Below are positions 4,714 through 41,300 of a stretch of DNA of 42,443 bases, piece after piece (position 1 is the stretch's first letter; each line of letters opens with the position of its first letter). The position numbers were made by a program, and so were the translations under genes. This DNA is from Seiridium cupressi (taxonomy: Eukaryota > Ascomycota > Sordariomycetes > Amphisphaeriales > Sporocadaceae): NCBI GenBank assembly GCA_036674765.1, contig JARVKI010000174.1, positions 1 through 42,443 of the forward strand, in the 5' to 3' direction. The notes beneath the pieces were generated by a model, which did no database searches, was not told where the DNA came from, and worked only from the letters and a program-made list of their open reading frames with translations.

Positions 4714-5124
4714 AAAAAAGATTCACCAAGCAAAACTAATGTATTAGCAGCTGAAATTGTCGTTGATTTAAAACTAATTCAATATTTTAGTAAGCTAGAT
4801 AATAAAGAGTTATTTGATAGATATATAATTTGCAAACGATTAAGTGGTAAATTAAAAAAAGGGATGAAAAATATAATTTATGAGACTTATGGTTGAAACG
4901 AAATGAACTATGATTTTGACAAAGAATATAAATATATTTTTAATTTTGAACAGTATCAAATTGCTTTTCAAGCATATAGAAAGAATACTTATCCTAATTA
5001 TGATTTATTCAAAAAAGATACTGCCTGACGCTATAATAAATTAATAACTAATTTTGAATTTATAAAGGGTTTAATTGAAAAATTTGAAAGGGAACAATGC
5101 ATAATATTTGAAGATGATGAATAG
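4714..5124 (+). CDS. Orphan ORF downstream of nad5 (open frame of 136 codons, no ATG at its head)
   Basis: I do not recognise this product. The frame is open from just after TAA 4711-4713 to TAG 5122-5124 with TGA as Trp. The first ATG is at 4864 and would give only 86 residues, so either a non-ATG start is used or the 5' end is broken. The protein is hydrophilic and rich in Lys, Tyr, Asp and Asn, with no membrane segment. Its first codons repeat the nad5 tail (4663-4695 compared with 4714-4746, offset 51 bp) but in a different frame from nad5. It ends about 80 bp before trnR. Function unknown; it may be a decaying ORF. Confidence 0.45.
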
Positions 5125-5205
5125 AGATATTATTTATATGATATTTTGTTGTATTTTTTTTTATGTTATAATTATTGCTTAAGAGGAGGAATAACTTTCT
5201 CTTAA

Positions 5206-5276
5206 TTTTCATTAGCTCAATGGTAGAGTAGGATACTTCGGATATCCTGATTTTAGTTCGAATCTAAAATGAGAAT
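5206..5276 (+). tRNA. trnR(ucg): tRNA-Arg, anticodon UCG (unusual member of a trnR family)
   Basis: Cloverleaf with acceptor 5206-5212/5269-5275, D stem GCTC, anticodon stem GGATA/TATCC and loop CTTCGGA (TCG at 5238-5240), and a good T arm. It is closely similar to trnR(ucu) at 18653-18723 and to a decayed copy at 17124-17195, which suggests it arose from trnR(ucu) by duplication and anticodon change. Whether it is charged and used is unknown. Confidence 0.75.
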
Positions 5277-5630
5277 TAAGCTTTATTTTTACTTTAAATT
5301 TATCTTAAAAAGAATGGATGGTGCTTTATAGATTAGATTCATTCAAACAATTATGTATTATATAGTCTGTACTGGATATTATGTAGTGATAATAAGGTTA
5401 AAGATCAAGCAAGCGGCTTTAATTATATTATTTTGTGAGATGATTTTGTAAATTTTCTGAAAATATATTTATATTAAATATTTATATTAATATTTATTAT
5501 ACTTTATATTTTTAAAGGGATTTTTATTGAATTATTTACTTGCTATATAAATGTTGTATATAATACAGAATAGAGCTTAAATCTAACTAACTCTAATTTA
5601 AATATAATTGAAAAAAAAAAGAAATAAAAA
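5277..5630. promoter_or_regulatory. cob leader region, partly duplicated upstream of orf378
   Basis: The 354 bp before cob have no gene. The last part, about 5545-5630, contains ATATAAATGTTGTATATAAT followed by TAGAG and an A-rich tract. It is repeated with changes at about 17261-17341, just upstream of orf378. The shared block may hold a promoter or a translation-activator site, but only the duplication is seen in the sequence; the role is inferred. Confidence 0.4.
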
Positions 5631-39415: not shown

Positions 39416-39640
39416 ATGATACAAGTAGCAAAAATAATTGGGACAGGGTTAGCTACAACAGGTTTAATTGGTGCAGGAGTTGGTATTGGTGTGGTATTTG
39501 GTGCATTAATTTTAGGTGTAGCTAGAAATCCTTCTATGAGAGGTCAATTATTTTCTTACGCTATATTAGGTTTCGCCTTTTCTGAAGCTACAGGTTTATT
39601 TGCCTTAATGATGGCTTTCTTATTGCTTTATGTTGCATAA
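39416..39640 (+). CDS. atp9: ATP synthase subunit 9 (subunit c)
   Basis: The ring-forming proteolipid of F0, 74 residues, with two membrane helices. It shows [22 protein letters not shown] in the loop region (39474-39539) and the essential acidic Glu in [18 protein letters not shown]. It is fully standard. That atp9 is mitochondrial here agrees with most, though not all, Pezizomycotina. Confidence 0.97.
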
Positions 39641-40029
39641 TAAAAAGTAAAGTTAAATACTTTACTCTGAATTATTTTACCTATAATAATACAGCTATAT
39701 AATTGTATTATTTATTAGATCCTTTTTATTTATGAAGAATTGCGGAGAAGAATTGAATTTTTGAGTTATAGCCGCATTTAAATACCTATAAAAGATTAAA
39801 CAAAAAAAAATTGTACATATATGGGTAAGTGATATACTTACTATATCCCAAATCTCTCAAATTTTGAATAAAAAATATACTATAGTGATATAGGGAATTC
39901 TATCCTATCAACATAGGATGAACCTATATCGAATGAACGAGTTTATCAATCTTTAACCCTATAAAAATAAAAATTATAATAGATTTATGTATGTTAATTA
40001 CTTTATAGAGATATTTATATAAATTTGTT
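39641..40029. other. atp9-cox2 intergenic region
   Basis: 389 bp with no gene. It contains dispersed element D (39717-39774). After that come short repeated ACTATAG/TATAGGG-type words and the AT-rich cox2 leader. Confidence 0.6.
39717..39774 (+). repeat. Dispersed short element, copy D
   Basis: Head AGATCCTTTTT, middle GCGGAGAAGA and end TTATAGCCG. It is the most diverged of the four copies. Confidence 0.5.
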
Positions 40030-40782
40030 ATGTTTTTGATTAAAAATCTTTTTAATATAAATTTTGATGTACCTACTCCTTGAGGTATTTATTTTCAAGA
40101 TAGTGCTACTCCACAAATGGAAGGATTAGTAGAATTACATGATAATATAATGTATTACTTAGTGATAATATTGTTTGCTGTTGCATGAATAATGTTATCA
40201 ATAGTAAGAAATTATATTGAAACTAAATCACCTATATCTCACAAATATTTAAATCATGGTACACTGATAGAATTAATATGAACTATTACTCCAGCAGTAA
40301 TATTAATATTAATAGCATTCCCTTCTTTTAAATTATTATACTTAATGGATGAAGTTAATGATTCTTCAATGTCAGTTTTAGCAGAGGGTCACCAATGATA
40401 TTGAAGCTATCAATACCCTGACTTTTTAAATACAGACGAGGAATTTATAGAATTTGACTCATACTTAGTACCTGAGTCTGATTTAGAAGACGGAGCTTTA
40501 AGAATGTTAGAAGTAGATAATAGAGTTATCCTTCCTGAATTAACACATGTTAGATTCATCATTACTTCTGGTGATGTTATACATTCTTATGCTTGTCCTT
40601 CTTTAGGTATAAAATGTGATGCATACCCTGGTAGATTAAATCAAGTATCTGTTTTTATTAATAGAGAAGGGGTATTCTACGGACAATGTTCTGAAATCTG
40701 TGGAATTTTGCACAGTTCGATGCCGATAGTTATAGAATCTGTTTCTCTGGAGAAATTCTTGACATGACTACAAGAACAATAG
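40030..40782 (+). CDS. cox2: Cytochrome c oxidase subunit 2
   Basis: A core subunit of complex IV carrying the CuA centre, 250 residues. Two N-terminal membrane helices are followed by EGHQWYWSYQYPDF and the CuA ligands in [13 protein letters not shown] and [15 protein letters not shown] (His, Cys, Cys, His and Met all present). Trp is TGA throughout. The C-terminus reads EKFLTWLQEQ. The last 19 bases (40764-40782) overlap, in another frame, the ATG of an orphan ORF. Confidence 0.97.
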
Positions 40783-41300
40783 TAAACTTTTCAAGTCTAA
40801 ATTTTCAAGAATCATCCTTTGTTTCTTTAGATTCAGAATATCTATTGAAAAATGTTCGTTTTTATACAAATTTATATGACTTAAATGCTTATTCAGATTT
40901 TCTTTCTTTTAATGTAAATCCATTCGATGGAGGTACTTATTTACAAGCTACTAATCCTCAAGATATTGATTGAGATTGAATTTGAGCTAATCCACTGTCG
41001 TCGTTTCTGGAGGCTAGTACACAATCTAGTACTGAGGATGCGCTTTTAAATAAAATAGAAGCACAAAGAGCTATTAACAGTAAAACTCAAGTTTTTAGTC
41101 CACAACATCCTGAAAGTAGTAGATTGTCTGAAGCTCAAGCTAAAGAGTTATGTGAGCGTTATTTTGAAGGTAATGGAAATTATTATAAATACAAACAATT
41201 ACAAAATGGTCACCATCGTTTAGTTCTACCTGAATGTGGAGCTTACCCTATAAGTAGTAATCATTTAATAGAAGTTATAAAATCTACTAAGCCTAAGTAG
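40764..41300 (+). CDS. Orphan ORF of 178 aa overlapping the cox2 3' end
   Basis: I do not recognise a family. ATG 40764 to TAG 41298-41300, reading TGA as Trp three times within seven codons near residue 70. It starts inside cox2, in a different frame, and overlaps it by 19 bases, so it must be on the cox2 mRNA. The protein is soluble-looking: an acidic and aromatic first half (DNPFDGG-like and WDWIW segments), then a charged helical stretch ([29 protein letters not shown]) and a His/Leu-rich end. Unlike the other gene-linked orphans it has no clear membrane segment. Function unknown. Confidence 0.65.

Follow-up and report, generated by a model that had tools for sequence, protein, structure and literature searches.

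Analysis of a 42,443-nt window from Seiridium cupressi (GenBank assembly GCA_036674765.1, contig JARVKI010000174.1, forward strand), the whole of which is a circular fungal mitochondrial DNA (mtDNA) with a 77-nt end overlap and the standard genes, rRNAs and tRNAs, indicated that several of its eight orphan open reading frames (ORFs o1 to o8, Table 1) are probably rider genes, which were placed by gene-end insertion or leader capture and are expressed through the host gene. Gene-end insertion was shown by anatomy for atp6 and o7, for atp6 of two other fungal contigs, and for cox1 of one, and we infer it for o5 and o8, neither of which now has a second gene end behind it. A first-pass annotation of the same DNA had suggested that the eight ORFs may be one family that spread by attaching to essential transcripts. 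Such attachment was confirmed for o2, o3, o4, o5, o7 and o8; o1 and o6 proved instead to be associated with leader copies, from rps3 and cob, respectively.

Two copies of the atp6 3' end were found to flank o7, which is the mark of mobile ORFs (mORFs), yet o7 matched no endonuclease family. The second copy (z 11.7, reached by 0 of 300 shuffles) carried stops in all three frames and gave a blastn E-value of 1.3e-7, against a best value of 5.7e-6 in 30 shuffled comparisons. A possible ATA start codon of o7 lies on the final A of the atp6 stop (TAATA). Insertion together with a duplicated gene end, to which the earlier annotation had pointed, was supported for atp6/o7 and in other fungal contigs; in the window, besides atp6 and a marginal case at nad5, the remaining 9 of the 11 ends tested were negative for a second copy. 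The nad5 copy is regarded as suggestive because 22 of 300 shuffles reached it.

Querying IMG/VR with atp6, cox1, cob and nad4 yielded seven fungal mtDNA contigs, which were read in pieces as G001 to G007; queries with cox2 and nad5 gave no matches in viral_contigs, and the loci L020 and L021 (33-56% to cox1/cox2, probably bacterial) were left out. All but one of the seven contigs had ORFs of at least 120 codons behind gene stops, eight in total, with five in the -1 and three in the +1 frame. In G003, atp6 is followed by a 335-aa ORF and a second atp6 end with 177/178 identical bases, and in G007 an atp6 end is followed by a 352-aa ORF and a second end (88/108 identical), with 0/300 shuffles in both cases. 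Another atp6 end of G007 carries a LAGLIDADG ORF (3.7e-18) with a TAATA overlap, so that both kinds of ORF occur on atp6 ends. In G001, the ATG of a 140-aa ORF begins on the final base of the cox1 stop, and the N-terminus of this ORF is itself a copied cox1 end (41/52, 0/300 shuffles; protein z 10.7 to cox1). In G004, cox1 is followed by a LAGLIDADG ORF (1.3e-44) and a second cox1 end (149/166), and in G006 cob is followed by an ORF (L035:18405-19022) and a second cob end (212/271); the latter ORF had no Pfam match, the frame behind it matched LAGLIDADG at 0.0038, below the cut-off, and it was not counted as a proven endonuclease. An attached ORF without a second end was seen at G001 cob and G002 atp8, and neither was seen in G005. 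Altogether, 8 of the 14 gene ends tested in these contigs had a second copy at 0/300 shuffles and 6 had none, with G003 nad1, G002 atp9, G007 atp8 and the third G007 atp6 end lying outside this set. The identity of the second ends ranged from nearly complete in G003 through 81% in G007 to 74% in the window, as would be expected for insertions of differing age. No Pfam match was obtained for the G003 and G007 atp6 orphans and two G001 orphans, the G002 atp8 ORF lying outside this check. As side observations, L005, L006, L017-L019 and L022-L024 are fungal mtDNA contigs classed as viral in IMG/VR, and in G003 (L030) two nad4 ends (85/102) enclose a hydrophobic-looking 161-aa frame.

The two ORFs without such an attachment were both preceded by copied leaders. 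The 87% match between the two cob-type leaders runs up to the start codons of both cob and o6. The 234 nt before o1 (to position 77) are identical to the region upstream of rps3, the identity stopping 10 nt short of the rps3 ATG and 12 nt short of the o1 Met, and the alignment continues past the identical part to both ATGs; at least 77 nt of the rps3-type leader belong to o1's own contig start. Carrying these leaders, o6 would probably be translated under cob signals and o1 under rps3 signals. No relatives of o1 were found among 7992 candidates scored, and an apparent nad6 fragment in o1 (E 2.4e-4) was discounted because 5 of 30 shuffled comparisons did as well or better. Three related tRNA copies were also noted around the cob leader and o6 (5189-5279, 17106-17197 and 18648-18726), two of them Arg and one called Leu(tag).

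The remaining ORFs lie behind or inside other genes. Like o7, o5 has a possible ATA start on the final A of its host stop (TAATA, cox1), the next start being GTG at 16347. Because neither o5 nor o7 has an ATG ahead of its membrane segments, these ATA starts are putative and were read from the open frame; nad4L and nad5 of the same genome overlap likewise, nad5 beginning on the last base of the nad4L stop (TAATG). Judging from the coordinates, o5, o7 and o8 are all in the -1 frame relative to the host gene. The first ATG of o2 does not occur before residue 51. In o3, the composition was coding-like on either side of the in-frame TAA, which is therefore recent or a sequence error. Gene calling is least secure for o2 and o3 and for the o5 and o7 starts, which are not ATG. 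As for o4, it contains a perfect 33-nt tandem repeat, no endonuclease frame was seen in its cox1 intron, and Rfam intron models gave no match in 10600-16000.

Table 1. Features of the S. cupressi mtDNA window discussed in the text.
Feature	Position	Strand and placement	Remarks
o1	6..1889	(+)	Several membrane segments; likely start Met 90-92, aligning with rps3 start codon
o2	4714..5124	(+), 25 nt behind nad5	No membrane segment
Possible second copy of last 12 nad5 codons	4704..4739	(+)	30/36 bases; z 1.6, 22/300 shuffles
Source cob leader	5545..5629	(+)	Ends 1 nt before cob ATG at 5631
o3	7974..8408	(+), 75 nt behind cob	Membrane segment, linker, charged second half; in-frame TAA 8226-8228
GNAT acetyltransferase gene	8690..9367	(-), between cob and cox1	Pfam Acetyltransf_3, 3e-21
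o4	12178..13035	(+), first cox1 intron (by reading of exons), about 20 nt before next exon	Charged, no membrane segment
o5, rider ORF	16338..17045	(+), behind cox1, -1 frame	Pair of membrane segments, then linker and coiled tail
tRNA-like copy preceding o6	17106..17195	(+)	80% to 5189-5276 (tRNA-Arg upstream of cob); called tRNA-Leu(tag)
cob-leader copy	17261..17342	(+)	87% over 85 nt, E 2.9e-22; ends at o6 start codon
o6	17342..18478	(+)	Conserved family; cob-like segment, linker, predicted five-helix tail
atp6	22156..22947	(+)	From ORF list; self-comparison shows the copied gene end to be the 3'-terminal 132 nt (22816-22947)
o7, rider ORF	22947..23537	(+), -1 frame to atp6	Membrane segment, linker, charged tail
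Decayed second atp6 3' end	23603..23728	(+), behind o7	93/125 aligned bases identical; z 11.7, 0/300 shuffles
Source upstream of rps3	33082..33325	(+)	rps3 ATG at 33326
o8	40764..41300	(+), -1 frame	No membrane segment; ATG 19 nt inside cox2 end
rps3-leader copy	42210..42366	(+), carrying on round the circle into 1-77	157 nt 100% to 33082-33238

Seven of the eight ORFs were open under genetic code 4 as first annotated, the exception being the split o3. Given the intergenic base composition, the expected chance number of frames of equal length was 9e-18 for o1, 2e-9 for o6, 2e-6 for o4, 1e-4 for o5, 0.002 for o7, 0.008 for o8, 0.19 for o2, and 10 for o3 up to its stop; this count excluded a chance-frame origin for o1 and o4 to o8, and left o2 on its own within chance length. 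In all nine ORF pieces, the third codon position had the lowest G+C content (0.12-0.19) and the named frame beat both alternative frames. The use of TGA for Trp in most ORFs, as initially noted, was verified by a TGA:TGG ratio of 25:3 summed over all pieces, with o7 having neither codon. The codon-position composition and TGA use of the window ORFs are consistent with mitochondrial coding sequence. Hydropathy prediction assigned the common body plan claimed earlier (membrane segment, linker rich in Ser/Gly/Asn/Asp/Pro/Thr, and more charged tail) to five of the eight, namely o1, o3, o5, o6 and o7, of which only o5, o6 and o7 passed a stricter scan; the G003 and G007 atp6 ORFs have a body plan of the o7 type. 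When 294 frames of at least 100 aa were scanned (some double-counted in overlapping pieces), the 13 that passed were o5, o6, o7, these two atp6 ORFs, and eight frames that by eye consisted of an exon plus an intron ORF.

These results bear on a rather unlikely alternative, in which the gene-end copies stem from ordinary tandem duplication or from old insertions of mORFs with a decayed endonuclease, and the ORFs are later, functionless, lineage-specific frames. The strong codon-position signal and TGA bias, the body plan common to five ORFs and recurring behind atp6 in two other fungi, and the six relatives of o6 described below all argue against such an origin, even though gene-end copies without a long ORF do occur (G002 cox2), o3 is broken, the riders share no common sequence, and o2 does not exceed chance length.

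The first-pass statement that the ORFs lack recognised homologues was refuted for o6 and stood for the others within the scope of the searches, in which o2, o3, o4, o5, o7 and o8 were compared with Pfam, PHROGs and NCBIfam only and o6 and o1 were also subjected to large protein searches. None of the eight ORFs (o3 up to its stop) gave an above-cut-off match in Pfam, PHROGs or NCBIfam. Six relatives of o6 with 32-46% identity were retrieved, and o6 belongs to an old family, which was not found in viral_contigs, genome_contigs or the seven fungal mtDNA contigs. One relative, P0002, has an ATP8 domain at its N-terminus (29.3 bits against a cut-off of 26.1), and P0002, P0003 and P0004 have identical segments arranged as a mosaic, as though paralogues were recombining. 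In addition, a 24-residue segment of o6 resembles residues 147-170 of cytochrome b (hhalign score 29.7, P 8.7e-4), with 11 other core proteins scoring at most 15.9 and 100 column shuffles at most 21.6. AlphaFold2 on the seven-row o6 alignment produced a model with a predicted local distance difference test (pLDDT) score of 74.9 (other four models, 63-66), in which membrane helices are followed by a disordered linker and a tail of five confidently predicted helices; fold searches for o6 in PDB and among viral models gave no match at E<=0.001.

Such conservation, the predicted fold and the cob-like segment would also suit a second alternative, namely that the ORFs are host genes serving the respiratory chain or translation in mitochondria, such as assembly or membrane-anchor factors, co-expressed with complex subunits and not selfish, and the cob and rps3 leaders together with the stop/start overlaps would couple their expression to the host genes. 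We consider this unlikely, given that unrelated ORFs or endonucleases stand behind the same gene in different fungi, that o3 is broken, and that the o6 fold matched nothing in PDB or among viral models at E<=0.001. Derivation from mitochondrial plasmids integrated into mtDNA is quite improbable, for although plasmid exchange with fungal mtDNA is on record (PMC9925561), single-crossover integration would likewise yield a duplicated gene end, and the region ahead of o1 is a mosaic of tRNA and rnl/rps3 copies, no plasmid polymerase domain was present in the eight ORFs (Pfam, PHROGs, NCBIfam) and the other assembly contigs showed no second ORF copy among the best candidates scored, only short mtDNA pieces.

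According to the rider interpretation, a segment bearing a copy of a gene's 3' end plus an ORF would enter that gene at its end; the incoming end would complete the host protein, with the ORF starting on the host stop or beside it, mostly in the -1 frame, and the displaced old end would stay downstream and decay. In the case of leader capture, o6 would have acquired a cob leader and o1 an rps3 leader. By either route, the ORF would be co-transcribed with the host gene and translated through host signals. Because LAGLIDADG ORFs occupy equivalent places in other fungi, we infer that the riders use, or did use in the past, endonuclease-dependent double-strand-break repair, or else the single crossover of a circular molecule bearing a gene end.

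The proposed gene-end route resembles that of mORFs with gene-end duplication, which are described for atp6 of Allomyces macrogynus and for atp6, atp9, cox2 and nad3 of Glomus sp. (PMC3630166), and the alternative ends of atp6 and cox2 in Phlebia radiata (PMC4019555). As in mORFs, a rider lies directly behind an essential gene between two copies of its 3' end, with the downstream copy displaced, and the hosts are atp6, cox1, cox2 and cob. The ORF inserted in the published mORFs is a homing endonuclease (PMC3630166, PMC4019555), whereas o7 and the orphans of G001, G003 and G007 gave no match to an endonuclease family and for the most part appear membrane-anchored; moreover, the riders are in the -1 frame with a stop/start overlap, whereas mORFs are in phase. 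The riders thus share the anatomy of mORFs and carry other cargo, and they lie outside the mORF family where this is defined by its endonuclease. Gene-end insertion with a membrane ORF was not found in the literature searched, which did not cover subscription papers.

Plant ORFs of cytoplasmic male sterility (CMS) are chimeric and membrane-anchored, contain leaders or fragments of atp8, cob and cox genes, and are co-transcribed with essential genes. They are resembled by o6 with its cob leader and moderate cob-like segment, by o1 with its rps3 leader, and by P0002 with its fusion to ATP8; unlike them, the riders are fungal and some entered through gene-end duplication, a phenotype and nuclear restorers belong to the plant ORFs and so far not to the riders, and the likeness is one of anatomy only. 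To this anatomical extent, the CMS analogy drawn earlier was upheld in o6 (copied cob leader, cob-like segment, and ATP8-fused relative). The ORFans of bivalves with doubly uniparental inheritance (DUI) are likewise lineage-specific, with an origin debated between viral insertion and modified mitochondrial gene copies (PMC6923999); a link to inheritance belongs to the DUI ORFans and so far not to the riders. The Fusarium LV-uORF is large, of unknown function and variable between strains (PMC5604515). Unlike the riders, it exceeds 2000 codons and is located between rnl and nad2 in the midst of tRNA genes, not attached to a gene; none of the eight window ORFs occupies that position.

Several observations weigh against the rider interpretation. 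Only atp6 among the 11 gene ends tested in the window had a clear second copy, and this shuffle-tested scan found no second end for cox1, cob or cox2. In the other contigs, G002 cox2 and G003 nad4 have gene-end copies without an attached ORF of at least 120 codons, and a 32-nt copy was detected at the control-chosen G002 cox1 end (0/300 shuffles). The copied ends begin 43, 35 and 59 codons before the stop, so that there is no single insertion site. The leader of o1 sits at the contig join within a repeat, and the 77-nt contig overlap falls inside that repeat. The hhalign probability of the o6/cob segment was only 23%, and pairwise comparison detected the segment in o6, P0001 and P0006, not in P0002-P0005. 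The common body plan is missing from o2, o4 and o8. None of the eight ORFs matched a homing endonuclease family in Pfam, PHROGs or NCBIfam, and the mobility of the riders is unexplained because they carry no endonuclease. Furthermore, the G003 and G007 atp6 orphans showed no above-chance similarity to each other or to o7, and no pair of window ORFs exceeded z 2.0 in a pairwise block-shuffle test (profiles being impossible for seven of the eight). Because no pair was similar in sequence, the window ORFs are not one detectable family, and the claim of a single sequence family was rejected.

The most likely role of the riders would be that of a selfish or antagonistic inner-membrane protein. Only tentatively do we extend this to a general class, in which selfish membrane-protein genes of fungal mtDNA would use mORF-type integration or captured leaders to force their expression with respiratory genes, the endonuclease having been replaced or accompanied; they would form a fast-evolving fungal counterpart of CMS genes, known by anatomy only. 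Orphan ORFs of fungal mtDNA are usually catalogued without further study; if gene-end copies and copied leaders mark their arrival, such ORFs would become traceable and datable by anatomy despite their unrecognisable sequence. This would likewise provide a fungal parallel to plant sterility genes and make mitochondria-nucleus conflict testable in an easily grown organism.

Among 117 comparisons with core genes, the top window value was obtained for o4 and nad3 (z 4.9, 0/200 shuffles, score 43), and o3b, a part of o3, gave z 3.5 (score 32) with nad1; we take both signals for chance or composition, the scores being low. The cox1 orphan of L018 gave z 3.2-3.3 with P0002, which was not significant after 16 comparisons. 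In the source assembly (45.4 Mb in 228 contigs), the other contigs contained no rider copies among the best candidates scored, and nothing beyond short mtDNA-like pieces, none longer than 89 nt. Between o8 and o1, the region 41482-42366 is a mosaic of copies of tRNA-Arg (81%), tRNA-Val (96%), the rnl-intron end (99%) and the rps3 leader (100%).

The GNAT gene contains six TGG and one TGA codons and has three nuclear relatives with 34-38% identity. A direct repeat flanking it (8464-8540/9466-9543) was discounted, shuffles reaching an equal E-value. Genes for nat1 or N-acetyltransferases are recorded in mtDNA of Xylariales (PMC11404375, PMC6140425); the window gene is the counterpart of this mitochondrial nat1 and was not counted among the riders. 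Its position between cob and cox1, together with the four tRNA-Arg, at least two tRNA-Val and three tRNA-Met genes of the window, agrees with the description of Dematophora necatrix (Xylariales) in PMC11404375.

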